From Pseudoxanthomonas sp. X-1 (GTDB lineage Bacteria; Pseudomonadota; Gammaproteobacteria; Xanthomonadales; Xanthomonadaceae): a stretch of 64,000 bases of DNA. The translations under genes and the position numbers were made by a program. Of this stretch, positions 4,470 to 49,948 are shown piece by piece. How positions within the stretch are numbered: the stretch's first letter is position 1; each line of letters opens with the position of its first letter. The stretch spans positions 1,338,001 through 1,402,000 of the forward strand of contig NZ_CP083376.1 in NCBI RefSeq assembly GCF_020042665.1, written 5' to 3'. The notes under the pieces were generated by a model that was not told the origin of the DNA, did no database searches, and was given only the letters and a program-made list of their open reading frames with translations.

Positions 4470-6469
4470 AGCTCGATCCCGTCGTGTTGGTCGAGGGACG
4501 CCAGCCGGGCTGTGCGCTGCATGGCCGGATCGAGTTGGCGGGGAAGCGGCAACGGAAGATCGTCGTCATCGAGCAGCGCCAGATCGTTGTCCGCCGGCTG
4601 TTCTTCGGGGCTGTAGGCGGCGGCTTCGGACAGCTCCGGCTGCCGGCGCGGGCCGCCGTCATCGGAAGTGCCGATGTCGTCGTCCAGCAGGCTCGCAGCG
4701 GCGGGCGCAGCAGGAACAGCGGGGACCGCCAGTGCGCTCCAGTCGTCGGGCCGTATGGGCGGTGCGTCGGCATAGCTCCCGGCAGCGAGCGTGGGCGGAC
4801 GCAACACGCGGCGCCTGAAATTCGCGTCGGCGTAGTAGCGCAGCTTCTTGGCCCTGATCGGCGCGACGCTGGAAACCATCACCACGGCGTCGTCCGGTGG
4901 TAGCTGCATCACTTCACCGGGCGTCAAGAGGGGGCGTGCCGTTTCCTGGCGAGACACCATCAGGTGTCCGAGCCACGGCGCGAGCCGGTGGCCGGCGTAG
5001 TTGCGCTGCGCGCGCAGTTCGGTTGCGGTGCCGAGCGTGTCGGAGATGCGCTTGGCGGTACGTTCGTCGTTGGTGGCGAACGTCACGCGCACATGGCAGT
5101 TGTCGAGGATGGAATGGTTCTGGCCGTAGGCTTTGTCGATCTGGTTGAGCGACTGCGCGATGAGGAAGCTGCGGATGCCGTAGCCGGCCATGAACGCCAG
5201 CGCCGTCTCGAAGAAGTCAAGCCGGCCCAGCGCTGGGAACTCGTCGAGCATCAGCAGCAGCTTGTGACGGCGCGTGATGCCGTCGCTGCCGTCGAGCGAT
5301 TCGGTGAGGCGTCGGCCGATCTGGTTGAGGATCAGGCGCACCAGCGGCTTCGTGCGGCTGATGTCCGAAGGCGGCACGACCAGGTACAGCGAGACGGGGT
5401 GTTCGGATGCGATGAGGTCGGCGATGCGCCAGTCGCAGCGCGAGGTGACTTCGGCCACCGTGGGGTCGCGGTACAGGCCGAGGAACGACATGGCCGTGGA
5501 CAGCACGCCTGACCGCTCGTTGTCTGACTTGTTCAACACCTCGCGCGCCGCGGACGCGACGACGGGATGCGGCACGTCGCCGAGATGCCGCGTCGTCATC
5601 ATCCGGTGCAGCGTCAGCTCGAACGGGCACGCGGGATCGGAGAGGAAATTGGCGACACCGCGCAGCGTCTTGTCTTCGCCCGCATACAGCACGTGCAAGA
5701 TGGCGCCGACCAGCAGCGCGTGCGAAGTCTTCTCCCAATGATTGCGGCGTTCGAGCGCGCCTTCGGGATCGACCAGGATGTCCGCGATGTTCTGTACGTC
5801 GCGCACTTCATGCGCGCCACGCCGGACCTCCAGCAGCGGGTTGTACGCGGCCGACTTCGGATCGGTCGGGTTGAACAGCAGGCAGTGCGAGAAGCGCGAA
5901 CGCCAGCCGGCCGTGATCTGCCAGTTCTCGCCCTTGATGTCGTGGATGACGGCGGACGCCGGCCAGCTCAACAGCGTGGGCACCACCAGGCCGACGCCTT
6001 TGCCGGAGCGCGTCGGCGCGAAGGTCAGGACGTGTTCCGGGCCTTCGTGCCGCAGGTATTGGCCGCGATGCAGGCCGAGGAACACGCCGACGGGCTTGTC
6101 GAGACCGGCCTTGCGAATGTCGGCAGCTTCGGCCCAGCGTGCCGAGCCGTAGGTCGTGACCAGCTTCGACTGCCGCGAGCGCCATACCGACATGGCGATG
6201 GCGACCAGCACCGCGACCAGGCCACTGCCGCCCGCAATGGCGCCGCCCTTGTCGAAGATGCGCGGGGCATAGCCGTCGTAGAGGAACCACCACTCGAACA
6301 GCCGCCAAGGGTGGTACACCGGCGTGTGAAGGAAGTCGAACCAGGGCGAGCCAAGGCGTACTTGGTAGCCAAGGGCGGCTGCTGTCCATTGTGTGGCGGC
6401 CCACACGCCGGCAAACACGATGCCGAATACCACGGCAATCTGTCCGAACAGCACGCCTTGACCTTGCAT
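4466..6469 (-). CDS. traG: TraG, VirD4-like type IV coupling protein
   Basis: A 667-residue coupling protein that docks the relaxosome on the mating channel. N-terminal membrane segments (IAVVFGIVFAGVWAATQW, then a second near residues 75-95) precede the ATPase. Walker A APTRSGKGVG lies near residue 150 and Walker B LLLMLDEFPALGRLDFF near residue 405. The C-terminus is acidic. A start 51 bp further upstream is possible, but ATG at 6469 has GGAGG six bases before it and gives the usual MQGQGVLFGQ N-terminus, so I use it. The gene overlaps the RHH gene downstream by 4 bp. Confidence 0.95.
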   Translation of the reverse strand: MQGQGVLFGQIAVVFGIVFAGVWAATQWTAAALGYQVRLGSPWFDFLHTPVYHPWRLFEWWFLYDGYAPRIFDKGGAIAGGSGLVAVLVAIAMSVWRSRQSKLVTTYGSARWAEAADIRKAGLDKPVGVFLGLHRGQYLRHEGPEHVLTFAPTRSGKGVGLVVPTLLSWPASAVIHDIKGENWQITAGWRSRFSHCLLFNPTDPKSAAYNPLLEVRRGAHEVRDVQNIADILVDPEGALERRNHWEKTSHALLVGAILHVLYAGEDKTLRGVANFLSDPACPFELTLHRMMTTRHLGDVPHPVVASAAREVLNKSDNERSGVLSTAMSFLGLYRDPTVAEVTSRCDWRIADLIASEHPVSLYLVVPPSDISRTKPLVRLILNQIGRRLTESLDGSDGITRRHKLLLMLDEFPALGRLDFFETALAFMAGYGIRSFLIAQSLNQIDKAYGQNHSILDNCHVRVTFATNDERTAKRISDTLGTATELRAQRNYAGHRLAPWLGHLMVSRQETARPLLTPGEVMQLPPDDAVVMVSSVAPIRAKKLRYYADANFRRRVLRPPTLAAGSYADAPPIRPDDWSALAVPAVPAAPAAASLLDDDIGTSDDGGPRRQPELSEAAAYSPEEQPADNDLALLDDDDLPLPLPRQLDPAMQRTARLASLDQHDGIEL

Positions 6470-21930: not shown

Positions 21931-23214
21931 TCAGAACCAGAAGCGGATGCCGGCCACGATCTGCCGGTCGAGTACGGGTTCGTGATCCTGCCGAGCGTAG
22001 TCGGCCGTGGTGCCGACACGGCGGACCCAGCTCACGCCGATGTACGGAGCAAACTGGCGGTGGATCTCGTAGCGCAAGCGCAGGCCGAACTGCACATCGG
22101 ATACGCCACTGCCGATGCGTCGTAGCGGGTCGTCCTTGCCGTACAGGTTGATCTCGGCTTCCGGCTGCAGGATCAGCCGCTGGGTGAACAGCAGTTCGTA
22201 TTCGGCACGCAGGCGCGCTGCTGTGCGACCGCCGGCGCCCACGTAAGCGGTGGCCTCCAGCTCGAACCAGTACGGCGCCAACCCCTGCACACCGAACGCG
22301 GCCCATGTCCGCTTCGGACCCTCGCCGAAATCCTGGCGCGCGCCGAGCTGGGTGCCCCAATAGGTGGCAATGCTGTGATTCCAAAAGGCTTCCAGCCCAC
22401 CATCGTCCAGCTTTCCGCGGCTGCGTTCGCCTTCCGTACGAATCCACAGCTTGTTCGTGTCGTTGCCGTACCAGCCTTCGGCTTCCCAGGCTTGACCATT
22501 CGCGTCGCGGCCGTGGAAAGCCTCCAACTGGTCGATCAGCAACATGCCCAGCGGCGTGTTGTCGGCCATGTCCATGCCCTGCATGGAGCCGTAGCCCACA
22601 CCGTCGGAATAGTCGGGACTACGCGCATCAGGGGGCGGACTGCCACCTTGCATGGGGCCCATCGTCATTCCCGACATCGCGCCCATGCCGGCCATGCCGC
22701 TCTGGTCCTTCTGCGACATCGCACCATGATCCATGCCGGCCATGCCAGCGTGATCCATTCCTTTCATCGCCTCCGGACTCATGCCGGTCATCGACCCGTG
22801 ATCCATCCCCGACATGTCGCCGGTCGTTGTCGTCGATGCAGCAGGGTTGGCGGGTTTCTGCATGCCCTGCATGCTGTCGTGATCCATGCCGGGCATGGCG
22901 CTGTGGTCCATACCATCCGCGCCGTTCATGGGGCTGGGAGCGGAGGTCGCCGGAGCGGGAACGGGTTTCTTCTTAGCCTTCTTGACGGGCGTTTTCGTCG
23001 CCGGTTTTGCCGTACTGCTCGGGGTTGCGGGCGTCGTCATGCCGGACATGCTGCCGTGTTCCATGCCGGGCATGGAACTCATGTCCGTGGACGAGGTACC
23101 GCTCGCAGGCGGTGCGCTCTGCGCCATGACCGCCAGAGGAAACGCCAGCAACAGCGCGGCCAGCAGCGCCGAACGATGCGGAACAATTAGGTCGTCGCGA
23201 CGAGGCATGTTCAT
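21931..23214 (-). CDS. copB: CopB, outer-membrane copper resistance protein
   Basis: A 427-residue CopB. After the signal peptide (residues 1-31) comes a long Met/His-rich copper-binding region made of degenerate repeats of the form MxGMDHxxM (about residues 45-220), with an Ala/Lys/Pro spacer (KTPVKKAKKKPVPAP). The C-terminal 210 residues form a beta-barrel (YWGTQLGARQDFGEG through the terminal aromatic residue FWF), which places it in the outer membrane. The start overlaps the copA stop by 4 bp, the classical copAB arrangement. Confidence 0.93.
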   Translation of the reverse strand: MNMPRRDDLIVPHRSALLAALLLAFPLAVMAQSAPPASGTSSTDMSSMPGMEHGSMSGMTTPATPSSTAKPATKTPVKKAKKKPVPAPATSAPSPMNGADGMDHSAMPGMDHDSMQGMQKPANPAASTTTTGDMSGMDHGSMTGMSPEAMKGMDHAGMAGMDHGAMSQKDQSGMAGMGAMSGMTMGPMQGGSPPPDARSPDYSDGVGYGSMQGMDMADNTPLGMLLIDQLEAFHGRDANGQAWEAEGWYGNDTNKLWIRTEGERSRGKLDDGGLEAFWNHSIATYWGTQLGARQDFGEGPKRTWAAFGVQGLAPYWFELEATAYVGAGGRTAARLRAEYELLFTQRLILQPEAEINLYGKDDPLRRIGSGVSDVQFGLRLRYEIHRQFAPYIGVSWVRRVGTTADYARQDHEPVLDRQIVAGIRFWF

Positions 23215-24983
23215 GACACCACCACCTCGCGGAACATGCCCGCTTCCATGTGATACAGCATGTGGCAGTGATAGGCCCAGCGACCGAGGTTGTCGGCGCT
23301 CACTCCGTAGGTAATGCGCTGCGCGGGTTGCACGTTGATGGTGTGCTTGCGCACCTGGAATTTACCGTCCGGGCTTTCCAGCTCGCTCCACATGCCGTGC
23401 AGGTGGATCGGGTGGTTCATCATGGTGTCGTTGACCAGCACCACGCGCAGTCGCTCGCCGCTGCGGAAGTGCACTGGCGTGGCGTCGGAGAACTTCACGC
23501 CGTCGAACGACCACATGTAGCGCTCCATGTTGCCGGTGAGGTGCAACTCGATCTCGCGGCTGGGTTCCCGTTTGTCGATGGAGCCGCCAAGGGTGTGCAG
23601 GTCGGCGTAGGTGAGCACGCGGCGGCCGTTGTCGCGCAAGCCCGTGCCCGGATCGTCGAGGTTGGTACGCGGCATGTCGACGTGCATGTCGACGCCGGGA
23701 TTGTGGTATTCGGTACGGGCATGGCGCACCACCGGTGCGGCCGCCGCTGCCATGCCGCTCATGTCCATGCCGGGCATGTCCTGCATCCCGGTCATGCCCG
23801 ACATCCCTTGCATATCGCCGTGTCCGGCGCTGCCCTGCGCCATCGCGCCCATCATGTCCACCATGCTCACGGGCATGCGCGGATCCATTGCCGGCACGGT
23901 CGCTTCCATGCCGATTCTCGGTGCCAACATGCCGCGTGCGTAGCCTGTGCGGTCGATCGACTGGGCGAAGATCGTGAACGCCCGGTCTTCCTGCGGCTCG
24001 ACGAGCACGTCGTAGGTCTCGGCCACTGAAATGCGGAACTCGTCGACTGGCACCGGCGCCACGTCCTGGCCGTCGGCGGAGATCACCGTCATCTTCAGGC
24101 CGGGAATTCGCACGTCGAAAATCGTCATCGCCGAGCCGTTGATGAAGCGCAGCCGGACCTTTTCACCGGGCTTGAACAGGCCGGTCCAGTTGCCCGCCGG
24201 GGCGGTGCCGTTCATCAGGTAGGTATAGGTGTAACCCGAGACGTCGCTGAGATCCGTCGGATTCATGCGCATCTGATTCCACATCTTGCGCTCGGCCAGC
24301 GCCTGACGAAGCCCCCGATCGCGTACGTCGCGGAAGAACTCGGGTGCGGTGGGCTGCGCGAAGTTGTAGTAATCGCTCTGGCGCTTCAGCGTGGCGAAGA
24401 TGTGCTCGGGGCTGGCGTCGCTCCAGTCGTTGAGCATCACAACGTAGTCGCGGTCACTCGGGTTGCGCTCCGGTCCGGCCGGGTCGATCACCAGCGAACC
24501 GTACAGGCCGGTCTGTTCCTGGAATCGCGAATGCGAGTGGTACCAGTAGGTGCCGCTCTGGCGCACCGGGAAGCGATAGGTGAAGGTTTCGCCCGGCGCA
24601 ATGCCGGGGAAGCTGATGCCCGGTACGCCATCCTCGCGGAAGGGCAGGATGATGCCGTGCCAGTGAATGGACGTGGGTACCCGCAGTCGGTTGGTCACCC
24701 GCAGCGTGACGGTGGTGCCTTCCTTCCAGCGCAAGGTCGGCCCTGGAATGCCGCCATTGACCGTGGTGGCGACCCGTGGCCGGCCGGTGTAGTTGACCAT
24801 CGTCTCGGAGATATCGAGCGCAAAGTCGGTCCCGCTCAGGGTGGCGGGTTGACCCGCGCTGGCCAGCGCCCAGGCTTTTGACGGGCGCAGCAGACCAAGT
24901 GCGGCGACCGTGCCGCCGAGGGCGAGACCATGGACGAAACGACGCCGCGACAAGTCCATCGGGGGCGGGTAAAGGGATTTCAT
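23211..24983 (-). CDS. copA: CopA, periplasmic multicopper oxidase (copper resistance)
   Basis: A 590-residue multicopper oxidase that oxidises Cu(I) and binds copper in the periplasm. A Tat signal (LSRRRFVHGLALGGTVAAL) exports it folded. Copper motifs in order: HWHG, YWYHSHSRFQEQTG, HPIHLHGM and HCHMLYHMEAGMF, with Met as the probable axial type-1 ligand. A Met-rich insert (residues about 365-410, with repeats such as MQGMSGMTGMQDMPGM) is typical of CopA. It heads the minus-strand copper operon behind the promoter at 25075-25126 and overlaps copB by 4 bp. Confidence 0.95.
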   Translation of the reverse strand: MKSLYPPPMDLSRRRFVHGLALGGTVAALGLLRPSKAWALASAGQPATLSGTDFALDISETMVNYTGRPRVATTVNGGIPGPTLRWKEGTTVTLRVTNRLRVPTSIHWHGIILPFREDGVPGISFPGIAPGETFTYRFPVRQSGTYWYHSHSRFQEQTGLYGSLVIDPAGPERNPSDRDYVVMLNDWSDASPEHIFATLKRQSDYYNFAQPTAPEFFRDVRDRGLRQALAERKMWNQMRMNPTDLSDVSGYTYTYLMNGTAPAGNWTGLFKPGEKVRLRFINGSAMTIFDVRIPGLKMTVISADGQDVAPVPVDEFRISVAETYDVLVEPQEDRAFTIFAQSIDRTGYARGMLAPRIGMEATVPAMDPRMPVSMVDMMGAMAQGSAGHGDMQGMSGMTGMQDMPGMDMSGMAAAAAPVVRHARTEYHNPGVDMHVDMPRTNLDDPGTGLRDNGRRVLTYADLHTLGGSIDKREPSREIELHLTGNMERYMWSFDGVKFSDATPVHFRSGERLRVVLVNDTMMNHPIHLHGMWSELESPDGKFQVRKHTINVQPAQRITYGVSADNLGRWAYHCHMLYHMEAGMFREVVVS

Positions 24984-34928: not shown

Positions 34929-35480
34929 ATGGCCACCACGTACTACTTCTTGGACACCGAGTGGGCCGATGTAACGGGCAGCGAGCTGGTGAGTTTGGCG
35001 CTGGTGAACGAAGGTGGAGACCGCCTTTTCTACGCTGAGCGAGCCAGCCTGCCCGAGGCTCCCACCGACTTCGTTCGTCAAAGCGTCTACCCACTGCTCG
35101 ACCGCGGCGGCGCGGCCCTGCCGGATGCCGCCCTGACTACCAAACTGCGCGCCTTCCTCAGCGAGGCTGATGCGCCGGCGGTGATGGCGGATTTCCCGAA
35201 CGATCTCCAGCTGCTGCGGTACGCCCTGGATGGATTTGAGCTCCCCGATGACCAGGTTGCTGTATGCGGACCCCGGCCGGCCCCGGTCATGACGCGCATG
35301 TCCAAGGAAGGCCTTCCGGGATTGCTGGTGGAAGATTGGTTCGCGGCCCATCCGGAACATAGGGCCAGGCGCCACCATGCGTTGGTGGACGCGCAGGCCT
35401 TGCGGATGGCCTGGCTGGTGGCGACCGACCGCATTCCCGCTCCCGCCTGGGCCCACTCGTACCGCCGTGCCCGGGGATAG
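34929..35480 (+). CDS. DEDDh-type 3'-5' exoribonuclease (Rv2179c-like)
   Basis: A 183-residue nuclease of the DEDD superfamily. The first acidic pair is in YYFLDTEW (Asp9, Glu11), a further Asp in the segment VMADFPNDLQLLRYAL, and the last motif RRHHALVDAQALRMAW supplies the His and Asp of the DEDDh type. The size and spacing fit the Rv2179c-like exoribonuclease group, which trims single-stranded 3' ends of RNA. It is the first gene inside the transposon and is followed by a tRNA-like gene on the same strand. A role in RNA processing or defence is inference. No strong ribosome-binding site is visible. Confidence 0.75.
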   Translation: MATTYYFLDTEWADVTGSELVSLALVNEGGDRLFYAERASLPEAPTDFVRQSVYPLLDRGGAALPDAALTTKLRAFLSEADAPAVMADFPNDLQLLRYALDGFELPDDQVAVCGPRPAPVMTRMSKEGLPGLLVEDWFAAHPEHRARRHHALVDAQALRMAWLVATDRIPAPAWAHSYRRARG

Positions 35481-35550
35481 CGGCATGGTGTCCATCCCCG
35501 GCATGCTTGCCCCATGAACCGCCTTAGCTCGCTCGACCCTCGAATACCGG

Positions 35551-35573
35551 CGTGATCGCATCGATCGATCACG
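35551..35573. repeat. Inverted repeat abutting the tRNA-like gene
   Basis: CGTGATCG (35551-35558) and CGATCACG (35566-35573) are perfect 8-bp arms around the 7-bp spacer CATCGAT. The last base is also the first base of the tRNA-like gene. It could form a leader hairpin in the precursor RNA or be a protein- or recombinase-binding site. Confidence 0.7.
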
Positions 35574-35675
35574 CCCCTGTTGCTCATGTTGGTCAGAGCG
35601 CCGGCCTTATACCCCGGTGAGAGCACGCGCCAGATAAGCGCGTACACGTCGGTTCGATTCCGACCAGGGGCACCA
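35573..35675 (+). tRNA. Unusual tRNA-like gene, anticodon UAU by position, with an extra hairpin
   Basis: A 103-nt gene with a perfect 7-bp acceptor (GCCCCTG/CAGGGGC), discriminator A and encoded CCA. The D-arm is GCTC-ATGTTGGTCA-GAGC, and a perfect T-arm has loop TTCGATT. The arm after the D-arm has stem CCGG/CCGG and loop CTTATAC with U33, giving anticodon UAU (Ile, AUA); its inner pair is a C-C mismatch. Then come 30 nt instead of a normal variable loop, with a 6-bp hairpin ACGCGC/GCGCGT whose loop CAGATAA resembles the tRNA-Ile(GAU) anticodon loop except for A at the U33 position. It is either a tRNA with a very long variable arm or a chimera with two anticodon-like arms. Confidence 0.65.
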
Positions 35676-35678
35676 CCG

Positions 35679-36305
35679 TCAACGACGGAAGAATGCTTCT
35701 ACTTGCGCGCCATGACAGCGCTTGTACTTGTTGCCGCTGCCGCACAAGCACGGTGCATGCTCGCGCAATCCCGCACCGAGTGACTGGCCCAAGAAATCCC
35801 TCGCCTGCAGCAGGGGCTGGATTTCATTGGCCGGAACGCTGACCTCGCCATACTGGGACGCTCGCTCGCCGCGGTTCATCACCTGGACAATCGCTTCGGA
35901 CATCTGGATGAAGTGTTTGATCAGCAGGTCGTCGCGTAATGGCATGCGGACGTTGTCGATGGCAAGGCCCTCGTAACGTCTTCGCGGATCCGGCACGAAG
36001 AGAATGCGCTTCTCGCCTTCAGGCTTTGGCGTGATGTCGATCATTTCTCCTTCGGGGCTGACCCACACCGCGTGGAATTCCGCTTCCACCAGCACGTGCG
36101 GCCATTCCCACAGCTGCCACCCGCATAGCATCTGACCACCGTCGCGCGCGACCTTGGCCTGCACGTTGGGAAAGCATTCGTGCACGATCGCATCGGCTTC
36201 CGGCTGCACATCGAGGTACACCGGTTCTGCGCCGCGCACGACCGAATCGGTCAAGCGCCGCACCGCACGGCTGATTTCCGGGGGTGTGGTTGTGACTACG
36301 CTCAT
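35679..36305 (-). CDS. SEC-C motif protein of unknown function
   Basis: A 208-residue protein ending in a SEC-C zinc-binding motif (PCLCGSGNKYKRCHG, near residues 187-201), which in SecA contacts SecB and ribosomes and is also found in many stand-alone proteins. The N-terminal 170 residues resemble no family I can name; they hold a Trp-rich patch (GWQLWEWPHVLVEAEFHAVWV). A strong AAGGAG site precedes ATG 36305. The gene ends 3 bp from the tRNA-like gene and converges with it. Function unknown. Confidence 0.75.
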   Translation of the reverse strand: MSVVTTTPPEISRAVRRLTDSVVRGAEPVYLDVQPEADAIVHECFPNVQAKVARDGGQMLCGWQLWEWPHVLVEAEFHAVWVSPEGEMIDITPKPEGEKRILFVPDPRRRYEGLAIDNVRMPLRDDLLIKHFIQMSEAIVQVMNRGERASQYGEVSVPANEIQPLLQARDFLGQSLGAGLREHAPCLCGSGNKYKRCHGAQVEAFFRR

Positions 36306-37520: not shown

Positions 37521-37674
37521 GTAAGGCGGATTCTGACCCTTCCCGGCGTCCCAAGCAGTACGAAACCGCCCAGGGCCGGCGATCGCTGGGTAGTATGGCC
37601 CAGAGCGGAAAGGAGGCCAGCCAGGGTGCAGGCAGGCTCCGCCACCGAGCCCGTTGGCCATCAAAGGACTGTGC

Positions 37675-39255
37675 ATGCCGATCGAACGTATCGTCATCGA
37701 CAACTTCAAGTCGTTTCGCCATCTGGACCTGCCCCTCAATGCCCACATGAACCTGGTGGTGGGCGACAACGAGGTCGGTAAGTCCACCCTGCTGGAGGCC
37801 ATCCACGCGGTGGTCACCGGCCAGCTGCATGGGCGCAATCTTGCCTACGAGCTCACGCCCTACCTGTTCCACCAGCCCACGGTGCAGGAGTACTTGGGAG
37901 CGCTTGCCACGGGCACGCCGGCCTCGCCGCCACGGATCTCCATTGAAGCCTATCTGGGCGCCGACGCCGCGCTGGCGTCGTTACGCGGCACCAACAACTC
38001 CCTGCGTCTGGATACCGCCGGCATCCGGCTGCTGGTCGAGCTCAACGACGACTACCGCGAGGAGTTCAACGCCTACCTGCAGCAGCACCAGGGCGCGGTC
38101 AGCCTGCCGGTGGAGTACTACACGGTGCGCTGGTACTCCTTCGCCAACAATGGCGTCACCGCCCGCAGTATTCCGTTCGACTCGACCATCATCGACACGC
38201 ACGGCATCAAGACCTTGTCCGGTGCCGATCGCTATATCGCCGGCATCATCGAGCAGGCACTGACGCCTGCGCAGCGCGTCTCGCTGTCGCTGAGCTTCCG
38301 CCGCATGCGGCAGAGCTTTTCCGAAGAAGCGGATGTGGCAGCGATCAATGCCTACTTGACCGAGCACACCGGGGACATCAGCCACAGGGCATTGACGGTA
38401 GGCGTGGACACATCGCCGCGCTCAACGTGGGAAACCAGCTTGTCACCTTACCTGGATGAGCTCCCGTTCACCCAGGCCGGCAAGGGCGAGCAAAGCGCGG
38501 TGAAGATGAAGCTGGCGATGCACGCGGCCGGCGCGGCCCACGTGCTTCTGATCGAGGAGCCGGAGAACCATCTGTCCTATTCCAGCATGACCCAGCTGAT
38601 CGACAAGATTGCGGCCCTCTCCACCGCCCAGCAGGTGATTATCGCCACCCACAGCAGCTTCGTGTTGAACAAGCTGGGCGTGGACAACGTGATCCTATTC
38701 AGCGCGCAGGGCCAGATGAAGCTGGACCAGCTGCCGAGCGATACGCACGACTATTTCATGAAGCTGCCGGGCCACGACACGCTGCGGTTGATCCTGGCCA
38801 AGCAGGCGATCCTGGTGGAAGGCCCTTCCGATGAGCTCATCGTGCAGCGCGCCTACAGCGACCACCACGGCGTGACACCGATGGCTCGCGGCGTAGACAT
38901 CATTTCGGTCAAGTCGCTGGCATTTAAGCGCTTCTTGCAGATTGCAGAGCGGCTGAAAATCCAGGCCAAGGTGATCACCGACAACGACGGCGATATCGCC
39001 GTTGTGCAGGAACGCTATGCCGAGCACATCAACGCGATCTATTACGATTCCGACGAAAGCGCCCCATCGCTGGAAGAGCAGCTGATCAAAGCCAACTCGC
39101 TGGCCGAACTCAATACCGTGCTGGGCAAGACGTTTGCCGATGAGGTGGCGCTGCTCAAGTACATGAAGGGCCATAAGACCGATACGGCCTTGGCGATCTT
39201 CAACAGCCCGCACTCGATCAGGTTCCCGGACTATGTCCAGCGTGCCATCACCTAA
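37675..39255 (+). CDS. gajA: GajA-like OLD-family ATPase/TOPRIM nuclease (Gabija defence)
   Basis: A 526-residue OLD-family protein. The ATPase half has Walker A GDNEVGKST (residues 30-38), a signature region FTQAGKGEQSAVKMKL, Walker B HVLLIEEPENHLS and the switch His in IIATHSSFVLNKL. The TOPRIM half has AILVEGPSDELI (Glu near residue 381) and the acidic ITDNDGDIAVV (near 436), the catalytic set of GajA nickases. It is directly followed by an overlapping UvrD-type helicase gene, the defining Gabija pair. ATG at 37675 has AAAGGA six bases before it; one 21 bp upstream lacks this. Length is slightly under the usual 550-600. Confidence 0.88.
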   Translation: MPIERIVIDNFKSFRHLDLPLNAHMNLVVGDNEVGKSTLLEAIHAVVTGQLHGRNLAYELTPYLFHQPTVQEYLGALATGTPASPPRISIEAYLGADAALASLRGTNNSLRLDTAGIRLLVELNDDYREEFNAYLQQHQGAVSLPVEYYTVRWYSFANNGVTARSIPFDSTIIDTHGIKTLSGADRYIAGIIEQALTPAQRVSLSLSFRRMRQSFSEEADVAAINAYLTEHTGDISHRALTVGVDTSPRSTWETSLSPYLDELPFTQAGKGEQSAVKMKLAMHAAGAAHVLLIEEPENHLSYSSMTQLIDKIAALSTAQQVIIATHSSFVLNKLGVDNVILFSAQGQMKLDQLPSDTHDYFMKLPGHDTLRLILAKQAILVEGPSDELIVQRAYSDHHGVTPMARGVDIISVKSLAFKRFLQIAERLKIQAKVITDNDGDIAVVQERYAEHINAIYYDSDESAPSLEEQLIKANSLAELNTVLGKTFADEVALLKYMKGHKTDTALAIFNSPHSIRFPDYVQRAIT

Positions 39256-40330
39256 CCGGATCCTGCTCTCGGCGGCCGGTTCGGGCAAGACCACCCTGCT
39301 GGTCCGGCAGGCCTTGGAGCGACCTGGGCGGCGCATCGCGATTGTCACCTACACGCTGGAAAACCTTGAAGAGATCCGGCGCTCGTTTGAGGTCCACGCC
39401 GGCGCGGTCCCCGCGCATGTCACCTTGCACAGCTGGTATGGCTTTCTGCTGCGCCAGTGCATCCGCCCGTACCAGGCGGCGCTGTGTCCTGAGCCTCGCA
39501 TCGAGACCATCCTGTTCGTAGAAGGTGTCACCAACAACCGGGCCCCACGCACTCAGGTGGCGCGCCACTACCTGGCTGGCAACCGGATGTATTCGGACCG
39601 GGCCGCCGACTTTGCTGTGCGCTGCGATGAGCTGACCCAAGGTCAGGTTGTGGCACGCCTGGCGGCCATGTACGACGAGCTCTACATCGACGAAGTTCAG
39701 GACCTGGCCGGCTTTGATCTGGATCTGGTCGAGCGGCTGTTGAAGAGCCATATCGCCATCACGTTGGTGGGTGATACGCGCCAGGCGACGTATGCCACCA
39801 ACTATGCGCAAAGGCACAGCCAGTATCGTGGACCCAATCTGGCAGCGCTGTTTCAGATCTGGGAGTCGGATGGCTTATGCCAGCTGGATCACCGCCTCAT
39901 CAGTCTGCGCTGCGTCCAAGCCTTGTGCGACATGGCTGACACGCTCTATCCGCAGATGCCCCGCACCCAATCAGGCAATGGCGAGGTCACGGGGCATGAT
40001 GGCATCTACCTCGTCGCTCCCGGCGACGTTGCTGCGTACATGCGAGAGTTCGCCCCCACAGTGCTCCGGCATGACCGGCGGCATGCCTGCGACGGACTGC
40101 CTGCGGTGAACTTCGGGCAGTGCAAGGGACGCACTTATAGCCGAGTCCTAATCTTCCCCAACGGGCCGTTGACGCAGTACCTGCGCACCGCAGATGCGGC
40201 GCGCATCACGGCGCCATCGAAGTACTACGTGGCCTTCACCCGTGCGCGGCAAAGCGTAGCATTTGTGTACGCTGGCGTATGTATGCTGCCGGGACACCAG
40301 CTCTATATGCCTGCCAGAGCGAGCACGTAG
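39233..40330 (+). CDS. gajB: GajB-like UvrD-family helicase, short form (Gabija defence)
   Basis: A 365-residue SF1 helicase. Walker A is SAAGSGKTT (residues 13-21), motif II is YIDEVQDLAGFD (near 150), motif III GDTRQATY, and the C-terminal motif VI region YYVAFTRARQSVAFVY is intact, so the core is complete. Typical GajB proteins are near 490 residues, so accessory domains are reduced. The start lies 23 bp inside gajA, implying coupled translation. In Gabija, GajB works with GajA to respond to phage DNA replication or nucleotide depletion; that function is inferred from the pair. Confidence 0.86.
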   Translation: MSSVPSPNRILLSAAGSGKTTLLVRQALERPGRRIAIVTYTLENLEEIRRSFEVHAGAVPAHVTLHSWYGFLLRQCIRPYQAALCPEPRIETILFVEGVTNNRAPRTQVARHYLAGNRMYSDRAADFAVRCDELTQGQVVARLAAMYDELYIDEVQDLAGFDLDLVERLLKSHIAITLVGDTRQATYATNYAQRHSQYRGPNLAALFQIWESDGLCQLDHRLISLRCVQALCDMADTLYPQMPRTQSGNGEVTGHDGIYLVAPGDVAAYMREFAPTVLRHDRRHACDGLPAVNFGQCKGRTYSRVLIFPNGPLTQYLRTADAARITAPSKYYVAFTRARQSVAFVYAGVCMLPGHQLYMPARAST

Positions 40331-40456: not shown

Positions 40457-40804
40457 ATGAACGATGATTCTGCCGTCTCAGCGCTCTCTGCGCTTGCCCA
40501 CTCCGACCGCCTGGCCGCATTCAGGATGCTGGTCCGCGCAGGTCCCAACGGCATGCCGTCGGGTGAAATTGCCGAAGCGCTTGCGATTCCGCCACCGCGC
40601 ATGAGCTTTCACCTTGCGACCTTGGAGCGGGCGAGCCTACTGCGCTCTTGGCGCGACGGGCGGCGTGTGCTGTACGCCGCCAACTACGAAGACATGCGCC
40701 AGCTTCTTGAATTCCTCACCGAGGACTGCTGTTCCGGAAATCCGGATATCTGCGGCGCCCTCAATAACCTCGTCACCCCTTGTACCACGGAGACCTGCGC
40801 ATGA
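40457..40804 (+). CDS. arsR: ArsR arsenite-responsive repressor
   Basis: A 115-residue ArsR/SmtB-type winged-helix repressor. The recognition region is PSGEIAEALAIPPPRMSFHL, without the ELCVCDL metal motif of classical plasmid ArsR. Instead it has C-terminal cysteines in EDCCSGNPDIC (Cys91, Cys92, Cys99), the pattern of the Acidithiobacillus-type ArsR, where three such cysteines bind As(III). It overlaps the first arsC by 4 bp. No Shine-Dalgarno sequence precedes its ATG, in line with the leaderless reading of the promoter. Confidence 0.93.
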   Translation: MNDDSAVSALSALAHSDRLAAFRMLVRAGPNGMPSGEIAEALAIPPPRMSFHLATLERASLLRSWRDGRRVLYAANYEDMRQLLEFLTEDCCSGNPDICGALNNLVTPCTTETCA

Positions 40805-41331
40805 GCTTTCCTCAGCCGTTTAACGTCCTGTTCCTCTGCACCGGCAATTCAGCGCGCTCGATCCTGGCCGAGAGCGTCCTTCGCAAGATCGGCGATGGCC
40901 GTTTCAATGCGTTTTCCGCCGGCAGCCATCCAAAGGGTGAGGTCCACCCGCTGGCAATCGAAACGCTGCGTCAGGCCGACTACCCAGTCGAGGGGCTGCG
41001 CTCCAAGGCGTGGGACGAGTTCGCCGTGCCCGACGCCCCAGCGATGGATTTCGTTTTTACCGTCTGCGATCAGGCTGCCGGCGAGGCCTGCCCATTGTGG
41101 CCAGGACAACCGATTACCGCGCATTGGGGTATCCAAGACCCGAGCCGTGAAGCACGCGGGGACATGTGGCAGCGCGCCGCCTTTCGGCAGGCGCTTGTGT
41201 ACATGGAGAACCGTATCAAGGCGTTCGTCGCACTTCCGATCCCCACACTGACCCGGACGAGCTTGGCCGCCCAGGTAGGCGAAATCGGGCAGTTCGACGG
41301 CACCTCATCGTCGCGACCCGACGTGGCGTAA
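40801..41331 (+). CDS. arsC: ArsC, arsenate reductase of the low-molecular-weight phosphatase fold
   Basis: A 176-residue arsenate reductase. The P-loop FLCTGNSARS (Cys13) and the later pair VCDQAAGEACP (about Cys89 and Cys95) make up the family's redox cysteines, and the general-acid Asp lies in GIQDPSRE. It reduces As(V) to As(III) for export by ArsB. It begins inside the arsR stop (ATGA). A second, unrelated arsenate reductase follows directly. Confidence 0.93.
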   Translation: MSFPQPFNVLFLCTGNSARSILAESVLRKIGDGRFNAFSAGSHPKGEVHPLAIETLRQADYPVEGLRSKAWDEFAVPDAPAMDFVFTVCDQAAGEACPLWPGQPITAHWGIQDPSREARGDMWQRAAFRQALVYMENRIKAFVALPIPTLTRTSLAAQVGEIGQFDGTSSSRPDVA

Positions 41332-41338
41332 GGGGATC

Positions 41339-41755
41339 ATGATGACACTGACGATTTACCATAACCCGGCCTGCGGCACGTCCCGGAATACCTTGGAAAT
41401 GATGCGCCAGTCCGGTGAACACCCGGAGGTCATCGAATACCTGCAGACGCCCCCAACGCGCGAGAAGCTGGTCGAGCTGATCGCCGCGATGGGCATGGCG
41501 CCGCGTGAACTCCTGCGCCAGAAGGGAACACCGTACGCGGAGCTGGGCCTGGATAATCCCGCGCTCACCAACGAACAACTGGTGGACGCGATGATGGCGC
41601 ATCCGATCCTGATCAACCGTCCCATCGTCGTTTCTGACCGGGGGGTGGCCCTGTGCCGACCGTCCGAGAAGGTGCTCGCGCTGCTGGACAACCCGCTGTC
41701 CTCCTTCACCAAGGAAGACGGCGAAATTGTGACGGTAGCCGGAGCGTCGACATGA
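41339..41755 (+). CDS. arsC: ArsC, glutaredoxin-dependent arsenate reductase
   Basis: A 138-residue reductase of the glutaredoxin-linked (plasmid R773) type. It has the catalytic [16 protein letters not shown] (Cys12) and the conserved Arg-containing segments [20 protein letters not shown]. It performs the same reaction as the preceding gene, with a different fold and electron donor. It is separated from the first arsC by 7 bp and overlaps arsH by 4 bp. The start may be the second Met (41342). Confidence 0.94.
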
Positions 41756-42477
41756 TCGATCGCATCGCCGCAGATCTGCCGAGCATCGACGCAACGCAAC
41801 TTGCACCAATCGACGTTGACGCGCTAGCTGGGCCCGGCGACCCCAGGCACCCGCCCCGGATCCTCATCCTCTATGGCTCGCTGCGGGAACGCTCTTATTC
41901 GCGGCTGCTGGCAGAGGAAGCCGGCCGGCTCTTGCGCTGGTACGGTTGCGACGTACGAATCTTCGATCCGCATGACTTACCACTGCCTGACGGAGCCACC
42001 CCGGATCATCCGAAGGTGAGTGAGCTGCGCGATCTCGCGTACTGGTCCGAAGGCATGGTCTGGGTCAGCCCCGAACGCCACGGCGCCATGACCGGGATCA
42101 TGAAGGCGCAAATCGACTGGATTCCGCTGGCCGACGGCGCCAAGCGCCCAACACAGGGCAAAACCCTGGCGGTGATGCAGGTGTCCGGCGGTTCGCAGAG
42201 CTTCAACGCAGTAAACCAGCTGCGTGTACTCGGCCGGTGGATGCGTATGGTCACCATCCCGAACCAGTCCTCGGTGGCCAAGGCATTCCAGGAATTTGAT
42301 GAGGCCGGGCGCATGAAGCCGTCCGCGTACTATCAGCGAGTTGCAGACGTATGCGAGGAGTTGGTGAAGTTCACTTGGCTGGTGCGTGGTCGCTCAGCGT
42401 ATCTGACCGATCGCTATTCCGAGCGCGTTGAGAGCGCCGAAGAACTCTCCAAGCGCGTGAATCAGCGCTCCATCTAA
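41752..42477 (+). CDS. arsH: ArsH, NADPH-dependent FMN reductase (organoarsenical resistance)
   Basis: A 241-residue flavoprotein. The flavin phosphate-binding segment is [20 protein letters not shown], followed by [19 protein letters not shown] and [18 protein letters not shown], all hallmarks of ArsH. The family oxidises trivalent methyl- and aryl-arsenicals. ATG at 41752 overlaps the stop of the preceding arsC; the open frame upstream to 41653 is only the shadow of that gene. It lies 17 bp before arsB. Confidence 0.94.
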
Positions 42478-42494
42478 CCCTGTCGGAGCGCTGC

Positions 42495-43799
42495 ATGCTT
42501 GCCCTCGCGATCTTTATCGTCACTCTTGTATTCGTCATCTGGCAGCCGCGCGGGCTCGGCATAGGCTGGTCAGCACTTGCCGGCGCCGCAGTGGCATTGG
42601 CCACCGGCGTGGTCGGGTGGAATGACGTTGGCACGGTGTGGGGGATTGTCTGGGATGCGACATTCACCTTCGTCGCACTCATCATCATCTCGCTCATCCT
42701 GGACGCGGCCGGCTTCTTCGCATGGGCGGCCCTGCATGTGGCCCGCTGGGGCGGCGGCAATGGTCGGAGGCTCTTTCCGCTGATCGTCCTGCTGGGCGCT
42801 GCGATCGCAGCCGTGTTCGCCAACGACGGCGCGGCCCTGCTGCTGACGCCGATCGTTCTGGCGATCCTGTTGCGCTTGAATTTCCCGCCAGCCGGGGCGC
42901 TGGCGTTCACGGTCGCCTGCGGCTTCATCGCTGACACGGCAAGCCTGCCTCTCGTTGTCTCGAACTTGGTCAACATCGTCACCGCGAACTTCTTTGACGT
43001 CTCATTTGGACGCTACGCAGCGGTCATGGTGCCGGTGAATTTGGTGTCGGTCGGTGCCACGCTGATCGTCCTGTGGCTCTGGTTCCGCCGCGACATTCCG
43101 CGCACTTACCCGCTCCACGATCTTGAAGCGCCGCATGAGGCGATCCGCGACAAGGCAGTCTTTCGCGCCGCCTTGCCCCTTCTTGCATCGTTGCTCGTTG
43201 CGTACTTCGTAACCGGGCCGCTCGGCGTGCCCATCGCCTTGGTGACGGGTGCGGCTGCGCTGGTGCTGATGGCAATTGCAGGTCGCTGGACGAGAGGCGG
43301 CCGAGGCGCCACCGTGGCCCTGACCAAGATTCTGCGCGGCGCGCCTTGGCAGATCGTGCTGTTCTCGGTTGGCATGTATCTTGTGGTTTATGGGCTTGGC
43401 AACGCCTGGCTGACAAAGGTGGCAAGTGCGGTGCTTGAGTGGCTGGCAGCGCAGGGAACCTTTGTGGCCACGATCGGTACCGGCTTCGCGGTGGCGGGTC
43501 TCGCATCGATCATGAACAACATGCCGGCAACCCTAGTGGGCGCGCTGGCCATCGACGGGGCCAATCTTCCGGCCGCCACCCGCGAACTGATGATCTATGC
43601 CAACGTCGTGGGCAATGACCTCGGCCCCAAGCTCACCCCGATCGGCTCGCTCGCGACCCTGCTGTGGCTACACGTCCTCGCCGGCAAGGGCCAACGGATC
43701 ACGTGGGGCCAGTACATGAAGGTGGGGCTCATCCTCACGCCGCCCGTCCTGTTGGCCACGCTCATCGCGCTCTGGATATGGCTGCCGCTTGAGCGGTGA
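42495..43799 (+). CDS. arsB: ArsB-family arsenite efflux permease
   Basis: A 434-residue inner-membrane permease with about 12 helices, matching ArsB: opening [20 protein letters not shown], the conserved [34 protein letters not shown], and the closing [20 protein letters not shown]. It expels As(III)/Sb(III) using the proton gradient; no arsA ATPase gene is present, so it acts alone. It is the last gene of the arsR-arsC-arsC-arsH-arsB operon and converges with the small gene at 43831. Confidence 0.95.
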
Positions 43800-43830
43800 C
43801 CGCGCTGGCGCATCGAGCTACTGGCAGTGG

Positions 43831-48258
<4,428 letters not shown>

Positions 48259-48262
<4 letters not shown>

Positions 48263-49536
48263 GGGGTTTCTCCAATGGAAGCGGCCGACGGCGGCGTTAC
48301 AAGCGCCTGGCCGGTCAGTCGTTGAATTTCGATCAGGGCGCGCTGTGCATCGAGCGCCACGTCCAGCTGCTGCTGGGCCATGGCCGTGCGTTCGGACTGC
48401 AACTGTGCCCATTCCAGGTAGCTGATCGCGCCGGCGCGATAGGCGCGCTCGGCGGCCTGCTCGGCCCGGGCCAACTTCGGCAGCACGTCGCCTTGCAGCC
48501 GTGCAACCTCGGCCTGCGCCACGGTATAGCGGCCATGGGCCTCGACCAACGTGGAATACAGCGACAGGCCCTTGGCCTCGCGCTCGATTGCCATCACCTC
48601 CAGTTCGGCTTCGCCGGCGCGGATCTCTGGCTGCGCACGGCTGCGGCTGCCCAGCGGCATGGACAGGCTGGCCACCAGCGCGGTGTCGTCAGTCTCCTGC
48701 AGGCGGCGCACGCCCAGCTGCCACGACAAGTCTGGCGCGGCCGCCGAGCGCGCCAGCTGGAGTCGCGCCTGCGCGATTCGGCCGGCGTCGGCAAATTGCG
48801 CCAGCTCGGGAGTGCGCTCCAGTTCCTCGGCCAATGTCTGCATGGACGCGATCGCGGGCAAGGTCATCGGATCGGCTGCGGCCACCTCGAAGCTGGGAGC
48901 CCGTTCGCCCCACAGTGCGGCCAGATGCTGACGGGCGGCGATTCGCTGCTGCTCGGCGCGATCACGGGTCAGCTCTGCGCGCGCCAGCGCCGCCTGTGCA
49001 GTCAGCAGCACCGACTCGGGCGACGCGCCAGCCTCCAGGCGCTGCCGGGCAGCGGCCACGGTTCGCTGGCGCTGGCCAACATCCTTGTCCGCCAGGCTGC
49101 GTTGCCGGTCGGCTCCGACGACGGCCAGATAGCGCCGCGCCGTCTCGGCGAGCAGGTCCAGCCGCCCGGTCTCGCGCTGCACGGCCAGTGCATCAATCCG
49201 GCTTTGGGCCAAGGTGCGGCGGGCGTCGAGCTTGCCGCCGCGCTCCAGGACCGAGCTCAGGCTCAAGGTCAGCTCGGCGCTGTCCAGGCCGCGGGCTGCG
49301 CCAGTGCCCAGCGCATTTTCAACCTCCGCCCCCAACGTCCACGGTGGCCGCTGCACGGCCTGGTCGCGCTCGGCAGCGAGCACGGTGGCCCGCGCATCGA
49401 CCAGGCGCAGCTCGGGGTGGGTTTGGGCCACGCGTGCAAACGCATCGTCCAAGGTCATCAGCTCTTCCGCTGTCGCCGGCGTTGCCGCCGCGCTCAACAG
49501 TAGCCACGCGGCCAGGGCCGCCAATCGCACATGCAT
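48259..49536 (-). CDS. czcC: CzcC, outer-membrane factor
   Basis: A 425-residue TolC-family protein with a signal peptide (LAALAAWLLLSAAATPATA) and long amphipathic helices in two repeats (EELMTLDDAFARVAQTHPEL; then SIDL-like second half beginning near residue 220). It forms the outer-membrane exit for CzcBA. ATG at 49536 directly precedes the signal peptide; a longer frame to 49692 has no ribosome site I can see. It overlaps czcB by 4 bp and follows the CzcI-like gene by 55 bp. Confidence 0.9.
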
Positions 49537-49591
49537 GAAGTACTCCAGAATTTTCGATAGCCAACAGGGATCCGGCGCACGCCGGCGCGCA

Positions 49592-49948
49592 TCACCCTGC
49601 GATCGGCGGCCGGAACGGCGCGAGCAGGTGCTCATGCCGATACCTGTCCGCATGGGCTGTCGCCGACGGCCAATGCCGGCCGATATGAGCAATGGCCAAC
49701 ACTATTTCTGGAGCCGGCGCGGCCTGGCTACAGCACAGCACCAGCTGCTGAATCCGGTGCAGCGCGGCGTCTACGCCACGCTCGGAAGCTGGTGGTGCCA
49801 CTGCTGGGTCATGGTCGGCAGCGGCCGAATGGGTTTGCGCATGGAGCTCGCCAGCCACTGCCAGCACCGGCTGCGTCACAAGGCCCACGGCCAAGTGCGC
49901 CAGCAGCAGCCAGCGCAGGCCACAGCTCAGCCGGCCAAGCGCTGTCAT
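49592..49948 (-). CDS. CzcI-like small exported protein
   Basis: A 118-residue protein with a signal peptide (LRWLLLAHLAVGLVTQPVLAVA) and a mature part rich in His and Ala (ELHAQTHSAAADHD; HRIQQLVLCCSQ; HADRYRHEHLLAPF). Size, export signal and the place just before czcC recall CzcI of Cupriavidus, a periplasmic regulator of czc; similarity by sequence is not strong enough to be sure. It overlaps the CDF gene by 4 bp. A comparable protein precedes cusC at 18030-18449. Confidence 0.6.
   Translation of the reverse strand: MTALGRLSCGLRWLLLAHLAVGLVTQPVLAVAGELHAQTHSAAADHDPAVAPPASERGVDAALHRIQQLVLCCSQAAPAPEIVLAIAHIGRHWPSATAHADRYRHEHLLAPFRPPIAG

Follow-up and report, generated by a model that had tools for sequence, protein, structure and literature searches.

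In bacteria, the codon AUA is read as isoleucine by tRNA-Ile2(CAU), whose C34 is converted to lysidine (k2C34) by TilS. The anticodon UAU is poorly read by E. coli-type isoleucyl-tRNA synthetase (IleRS), and Mycoplasma mobile probably has a one-armed tRNA-Ile(UAU). The family described here would resemble tRNA-Ile2 in that AUA is read as isoleucine. However, tRNA-Ile2 needs both the anticodon CAU and TilS, whereas the family has the anticodon UAU (27/27 matches with the anticodon left free) and a second anticodon-like arm.

Several other described tRNAs come close. Among phages, lysidine is borne by a vibriophage tRNA(CAU) (PMC13191261; this and all other papers are cited from excerpts). Phage-derived mycobacterial tRNA clusters contain a tRNA-Ile(UAU), expressed in M. 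mucogenicum according to Northern blot, which shares both the UAU/AUA pairing and the cluster setting with our family (PMC6582537); we assume that it is probably one-armed, whereas our family has a second arm. The type II tRNAs for leucine, serine, and tyrosine have the same long insertion between anticodon and T arms, but differ in its spacing, loop size, and loop sequence. The second arm (arm 2) reproduces the anticodon-arm determinants of tRNA-Ile(GAU), in one member (L137) even with the loop CTGATAA; unlike that tRNA, it has A at position 33 and is preceded by a UAU arm. Finally, the wording 'two anticodon arms' is shared with chloroplast tRNA-Ser(GCU), whose extra arm was proposed to be complementary to a stop codon (PMC10228390). 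That tRNA is unlike the present family in being chloroplast-borne and serine-specific, and the excerpt makes no link to synthetase determinants. A search covering open-licence PMC full texts found no description of this two-arm family in titles or abstracts; as far as this literature shows, the family is an undescribed structural variant of tRNA, widespread in phages.

The tRNA gene and its surroundings

The window, i.e. the whole stretch of DNA analyzed, comprises 64,000 nt of the genome of Pseudoxanthomonas sp. X-1. It contains a tRNA of 103 nt including CCA, which was accepted by the Rfam tRNA model (RF00005) with 48.9 bits against a gathering threshold of 29 (E = 2e-7). The Rfam alignment places a 27-nt insertion after the anticodon arm and before the T arm. 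The following features were assigned:

34929..35480, + strand: relative of 3'-5' exoribonucleases with DEDDh-like motifs, RNase AS-like, below the NCBIfam cut-off
35549..35575, + strand: perfect 10-nt inverted repeat with a 7-nt spacer, ending in the first three tRNA bases
35573..35675, + strand: whole tRNA gene with encoded CCA, putative two-arm tRNA-Ile(UAU) of the long subtype (cmscan 48.9 bits; model R1 75.3 bits)
35573..35579, + strand: 5' strand of the acceptor stem, 7 bp with 35665-35671 (covariation in 7/7 pairs, 59 relatives)
35582..35599, + strand: D arm, GCTC/GAGC, 4 bp
35601..35617, + strand: arm 1, putative decoding anticodon arm, 4 bp plus a C31-C39 mismatch
35606-35612, + strand: arm 1 loop CTTATAC, with the anticodon TAT at 35608-35610
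35618..35625, + strand: linker between arms 1 and 2, in which the D-stem 3' strand (GAGC) recurs at 35621-35624
35626..35642, + strand: arm 2, putative IleRS-type anticodon arm (supported by family conservation), stem CGCGC/GCGCG
35631-35637, + strand: arm 2 loop CAGATAA, with GAT at 35633-35635 and A at position 33
35643..35647, + strand: variable loop of canonical length (5 nt), from arm 2 to the T arm
35648..35664, + strand: T arm, 5 bp
35665..35675, + strand: 3' strand of the acceptor stem, A73, and CCA (A73 kept in 138/142 members among the matches listed)
35679..36305, - strand: SEC-C motif protein, converging on the tRNA

The acceptor stem, D arm, and T arm are fully paired (7/7, 4/4, and 5/5), as had been stated in a preliminary description together with the encoded CCA. 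With respect to the D arm, arm 1 occupies the position of an anticodon arm, and its loop contains U33-UAU-A37; its stem is imperfect, with 4 bp, which corrects the earlier account of the two arms. Arm 2 has five pairs, or six in the predicted fold. Both arms were formed when the window tRNA was folded freely (MFE -43.3 kcal/mol, z = -2.9), and none of 200 shuffled sequences was equally stable. ARAGORN reported a shortened alternative for the window (35603-35675), a tRNA-Ile(GAU) with the second hairpin taken as anticodon arm. The window copy shows the full set of two-arm features, namely UAU in arm 1, GAU-A-A in arm 2, A33, C29-G41, and canonical spacing to the T stem; C4-G69 is also present.

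Repeats of at least six bases lie just upstream of the tRNA in 27/30 Lysobacterales sources versus 14/142 viral sources (among the matches listed). A search for promoters and terminators at the window tRNA gave no match. The possibility that the gene serves as an attachment site was rejected: no direct repeats were found in 35500-35700, and the excerpted paper on tRNA-dependent lysogeny, which names Ile2-CAT, Lys, and other tRNAs, names no UAU tRNA (PMC10865867).

The preliminary description had placed the tRNA on a transposon. A mobile-element setting was indeed found, but the term is loose, as the surrounding element looks integrative or plasmid-like and includes RepA, ParA, a DUF3363 relaxase, an S26 peptidase, and a Gabija pair. 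The latter corresponds to an OLD-type ATPase and a UvrD-type helicase at 37654-40330 in the window (GajA and GajB; PADLOC E = 4e-298 and 2e-192). According to the list of open reading frames, putative sets of copper-, arsenic-, and Czc-like genes lie on both sides of the element (21931-24983 and 40457-49692). In pCuR, which harbors an identical plasmid copy, the tRNA lies beside copper genes in the one annotation read.

Distribution of the family and covariation of its arms

The window tRNA is a member of a family found in phage tRNA clusters and in plasmids and islands of Lysobacterales. Using blastn, 44 plasmid records matched the window tRNA, all from Xanthomonas and 18 of them at 99% identity or more. 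Over the 131-base query, the window copy was 100% conserved in nine plasmid records. Other Xanthomonas plasmid matches (L004, L005, and L008) show about 76% identity and are shorter by about ten bases, and two (L006 and L007, at approximately 5000-5090) are truncated copies which kept the 3' part, lost the 5' part, and have an altered arm-2 loop. A relative in a Vibrio phage (L009), annotated as tRNA-Ile, differs in the stem of arm 2 but has the identical loop CAGATAA. Both arms were present in all six records inspected among the isolate phages matched by blastn, i.e. the Vibrio phages WD615, Thalassa, Luma, henriette 12B8, and V6Aob, and the Stenotrophomonas phage DLP6. The Thalassa member is annotated as Ile(tat) and that of DLP6 as tRNA-Ile-TAT. 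In public phage genomes, members have already been labeled 'tRNA-Ile' by annotation programs, and the family has gone unnoticed there.

Pattern scans of IMG/VR returned family members in at least 144 viral loci. When 84,980 species genomes were scanned, 45 matches were obtained, of which 41 were tRNA-like by eye (exceptions being L209, L212, L222, and L241); 20 lay in Lysobacterales according to the record titles. The remaining matches were distributed over Planctomycetota, Nitrospirales, Bacteroidetes, Bacillota, Verrucomicrobiales, Obscuribacterales, and Alpha- and Gammaproteobacteria. Matches in metagenome-assembled genomes could stem from phage contigs that were included in the bins. We conclude that the tRNA belongs to mobile elements and is not a housekeeping tRNA. 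It was found in 7 of 38 genomes of the window's own genus (model R1, at least 75 bits), in 9 of 299 genomes of the order (pattern), and in 1 of 398 genomes of the phylum. A general bacterial tRNA could be rejected, as model R1 exceeded 62 bits only in the window's own genome among those 398. Eight of the next-best R1 matches listed, chosen mainly by length, were seven tRNA-Leu(UAA) and one tRNA-Arg.

All viral figures are samples, i.e. members were counted among the matches listed. The member set comprises at least 142 distinct sequences from 144 viral sources, 48 genome sources, and 7 window, plasmid, or phage sources, some of which represent the same place (the window, L001, and L156). Members were picked by a regular expression in which TTAT of arm 1 and the larger part of the arm-2 loop were fixed; therefore, conservation of these letters is quoted only from scans that left them free. 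Counts out of 143, or out of 13 plus 130, include a probable chance match (L222), which is excluded from counts out of 142; with it, the set comprised at least 143 distinct sequences from 200 sources. As the members are related and horizontally spread, counts do not represent independent events.

For covariation analysis, 59 distinct sequences out of 99 were retained after thinning by hand (alignment A1). Double changes were found for 7/7 pairs of the acceptor stem, 2/4 of the D stem, 2/5 of arm 1, 3/5 of the T stem, and 2/3 of arm 2; in the latter, 27 double-changed sequences were counted at each of the two pairs and 99.4% of cells were paired. Over all stems, 96.3% of cells were paired, compared to 41-52% when the 3' partners were slid. 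Pairing in arm 1 was lower (83.7%) because the 31-39 pair is non-standard in 45 of the 59 sequences. With the anticodon left free, TTATA was recovered in 119/119 viral matches (among those listed) and 3/3 plasmid matches. When arm 2 was fixed but nothing upstream of it, UAU occurred in all 27 matches, some of them duplicates. When the arm-2 loop was left free, it read CAGATAA in 110, CAGATTA in 11, TAGATAA in two, and CTGATAA and TGGACTG in one each of 125 viral sequences among the matches listed, up to six of which may stem from loop-fixing scans (the loop-free scan itself gave at least 119 stretches). GAT was thus present in 124/125 and A at the position equivalent to 33 in 123/125 (viral, among the matches listed). 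The outlier with loop TGGACTG (L143:10123-10214) has a UAU arm 1 and no encoded CCA.

Taken at the level of sequence, these data make the two-arm architecture well supported. They bear out what the preliminary description had proposed for the window tRNA, i.e. two anticodon-like arms, the anticodon UAU (codon AUA), a second loop resembling that of tRNA-Ile(GAU), a link to phages, and, as a check, covariation in homologues. Its view that selection has kept the tRNA is likewise sustained by near-identical Xanthomonas plasmid copies and by divergent relatives that hold both arms with compensatory changes. Part of the pattern that it had named as contrary evidence does occur in some relatives, namely the truncated copies (L006 and L007). 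In view of the covariation and the breadth of the family, we rejected a pseudogene or chance hairpin despite the truncated copies.

In the phages, the family occurs within sets of tRNAs. ARAGORN predicted 2020 tRNAs in the 144 phage loci, and 130 of these loci carry at least two tRNAs besides the two-arm member (both among the matches listed). In 38 of 39 listed loci with 20 to 37 tRNAs, the two-arm member is the only UAU tRNA, the exception (L142) having a second, one-armed one. The same 39 loci, again among the matches listed, contain 62 CAU tRNAs, of which 20 are initiator-like (1-72 mismatch), 41 lack the mismatch, and one is unclassified. About one non-initiator CAU tRNA per locus is what would be expected for elongator Met alone, which leaves little room for tRNA-Ile2. 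In phage loci with less than 45% G+C, the median share of AUA among Ile codons is about one quarter (among the matches listed; shares derived from open frames of at least 150 codons in all six frames of 125/144 loci). In phages, the two-arm tRNA therefore looks like a candidate AUA-decoding tRNA in place of tRNA-Ile2(CAU).

Additional tRNAs in these loci include (i) the one-armed tRNA-Ile(UAU) at L142:10454-10531, with the loop CTTATAA, A38, and an odd T loop; and (ii) possible suppressors at L135:3816-3891 and L142:14-88, one tRNA with a CTA anticodon, which ARAGORN called Pyl, and one with a four-base anticodon call. A pattern search of the window's own genome yielded three CAU tRNAs; by comparison with E. 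coli sequences, we take one of them to be Ile2; the pattern used for tRNA-Ile(GAU) gave no match there.

Isoleucine determinants and the position of arm 2

Bacterial Ile determinants comprise A73, C4-G69 (a minor one), U12-A23, C29-G41, C/G34, A35, U36, A37, A38, and D-loop positions (PMC9976931, Table 1). Judged by its sequence, arm 2 carries the IleRS DETERMINANTS, namely C29-G41, G34, A35, U36, A37, and A38. Among the 142 members in the matches listed, its 29-41 pair is C-G in 134, while the neighboring pairs vary (30-40 GC in 70 and AT in 68; 31-39 AT in 74 and CG in 64). Positions 34-38 of arm 2 read G-A-U-(A/U)-A, with U37 in six members. In arm 1, pair 29-41 is G-C in 135/142 members and position 38 is T or C in 136/142 (among the matches listed), A38 being found in six. 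Arm 1 thus mostly keeps only positions 35-37 of the Ile anticodon-arm set, and has U34. In other tRNAs of the same phage loci, C29-G41 was found in 77/1364 non-Ile tRNAs and 25/45 tRNA-Ile(GAU). U33 was present in 1350/1364 of these non-Ile tRNAs, whereas arm 2 has A33. Outside the two arms, A73 (138/142) and U12 (139/142) are kept among the matches listed, with U12-A23 in 58/59 sequences of A1; C4-G69 is not conserved (C-G in 82/142, among the matches listed).

These features bear on a possible role in counter-defense. Arm 2, whose loop is close to that of tRNA-Ile(GAU), could be a decoy or shield mimicking this loop against a host defense that cuts tRNAs, with charging through UAU. Phage tRNAs are known counter-defense factors, e.g. 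tRNA-Tyr is cleaved in its variable loop by Septu and retron-Eco7, and a phage tRNA-Tyr provides rescue (PMC13096335); moreover, Gabija genes lie near the window tRNA. Nevertheless, we regard such a decoy as unlikely, since it does not account for UAU in arm 1 being coupled to this loop, for arm 1 having lost Ile determinants, for C29-G41 being retained while its neighbors vary, or for the spread over many kinds of phages. Neither a decoy nor a regulatory mimic would explain why UAU in arm 1 is paired with Ile determinants in arm 2.

The second arm could alternatively belong to a type II-like tRNA, its long arm being structural or read by the Leu, Ser, or Tyr synthetase, in which case AUA might be recoded. 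The long insertion is consistent with this, A73 is also a Leu determinant (PMC9976931), and ARAGORN takes phage members as ordinary long tRNAs. The geometry differs, however. From the end of the arm-2 loop to the T stem, 9 nt were counted in 107 and 10 nt in 35 of 142 members (among the matches listed). This equals five stem bases plus a variable loop of 4-5 nt, and therefore the ordinary position of an anticodon arm. In 213 tRNAs for Ser, Leu, and Tyr from the same phage loci, the stem of the variable arm lies 1-3 nt from the T stem (202/213) and mostly has a 4-nt loop (156/213), whereas in the two-arm family the stem lies 6-7 nt away (113/143) and the loop has 7 nt (122/143; both among the matches listed). 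As far as sequence positions tell, the distance of arm 2 from the T arm is that of an anticodon arm and not that of a type II variable arm. We therefore rejected an ordinary long variable arm, and with it the '30-nt variable region' of the preliminary description. As G34-A38 and C29-G41 would also go unexplained, we consider a type II-like tRNA quite unlikely.

That arm 2 would be used as a full anticodon arm is nonetheless tentative, as only three consecutive pairs are formed in 115/143 members and a G-G mismatch occupies 28-42 in 119/142 (both among the matches listed). The retention of this G-G suggests a specific non-canonical pair. In most of the long subtype, the linker repeats the 3' strand of the D stem, and thus a second cloverleaf around arm 2 could form: 3-4 D pairs are available in 11 of 13 long-subtype members (the window copy being among the 13), and 0-2 in 129 of 130 members of the short subtype (among the matches listed). 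Constrained folding of the window copy gave -38.9 kcal/mol for fold A and -35.8 kcal/mol for fold B, the second cloverleaf, i.e. a cost of about 3 kcal/mol; for L216 and L009, folds A and B were about equal. Based on these models, a redrawn cloverleaf is plausible in the long subtype only. Free folding is no strong witness for arm 2, since the predicted structure has the arm in the window copy but lacks it in a common phage member (L012; MFE -21.9 versus -20.9 for the cloverleaf).

The exoribonuclease neighbor and a proposed mechanism

The protein encoded upstream of the window tRNA matches RNase AS weakly and shows DEDDh-like motifs by eye; a PDB search with it gave no match. In 21/32 Lysobacterales sources (counting partial flanks and near-duplicates), a homologous gene was located at most about 1 kb from the tRNA. 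It precedes tRNAs of the long subtype and, except in L233, follows those of the short subtype. Among the 38 genomes of the window's genus, seven contain the tRNA, seven the exonuclease, and six both (P = 1.7e-5 if genomes were independent). In four genomes of this genus, another exonuclease gene with about 50% identity is situated nearby on the same strand. The exoribonuclease gene is a lead to why the window copy is kept.

The preliminary description had suggested that the tRNA might serve AUA codons of local cargo. This was not supported: none of the 70 Ile codons of the five nearest genes is AUA (12 of 353 in 22 genes), and local codon supply is therefore an unlikely reason for the window copy. 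Together with the co-occurrence described above, this shortage of AUA would fit a window copy that is no codon supplier, but a hitch-hiker or functional only with the neighboring exoribonuclease. Yet the stems of the window copy are intact and the 131-base query is fully conserved on plasmids, while the nuclease is absent or distant in 11/32 Lysobacterales sources and near the tRNA in only 1/144 viral loci (L248; among the matches listed). We hold this explanation to be rather improbable for the window copy, and the family at large needs no nuclease, given the single viral case among the matches listed. Finally, an intramolecular switch, in which AUAA of arm 2 pairs with UUAU of arm 1 and hides the anticodon until release, is very unlikely: in the majority form, four bases of one loop could pair with the other, but such loop-loop kissing is weakened by the CAGATTA forms (11/125, among the matches listed) and L143, which break the pairing with arm 1 unchanged, and the complementarity follows by itself when a GAU-A loop faces a UAU loop.

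We consider it probable, from the distribution of determinants, that the family represents tRNA-Ile with tandem anticodon arms, in which arm 1 would decode AUA and arm 2 would act as a handle for isoleucylation, replacing the lysidine-dependent tRNA-Ile2. The charging role of arm 2 is what we infer from its sequence. UAU has neither the G34 nor the lysidine of the known bacterial set (PMC9976931), so that an additional handle for the synthetase would solve a real problem. In the proposed mechanism, arm 2 would take the place of the anticodon arm by stacking under the D arm, and would be gripped by host IleRS, which would isoleucylate the RNA despite its decoding anticodon UAU. The simplest idea of how arm 2 might reach the anticodon-binding domain of IleRS is a swap of the arm stacked under the D stem; in the long subtype, the whole cloverleaf might be redrawn around either arm. 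The ribosome would read arm 1 at the codon AUA, and A33 would keep arm 2 from acting as a GAU decoder. A33 at a position where U33 is otherwise near-universal fits an arm that is recognized but does not decode. The phage would thereby decode AUA without TilS, the lysidine enzyme needed by tRNA-Ile2(CAU). The arrangement probably originated by tandem duplication of roughly positions 22-48.

Few architectures in biology are as constant as that of tRNA, in which one anticodon serves both synthetase and ribosome. We see an even chance that, in this family, recognition by the synthetase and reading by the ribosome are assigned to different anticodon arms, with a switch between two stacking states, which in the long subtype would be two full cloverleafs, and that AUA is thereby read as isoleucine without lysidine in hosts from many phyla. 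If true, a broad natural family with a duplicated anticodon arm and divided determinants would break the one-anticodon rule. It would also explain how phages decode AUA without lysidine, and would offer a principle for designing tRNAs that are charged independently of their codon.
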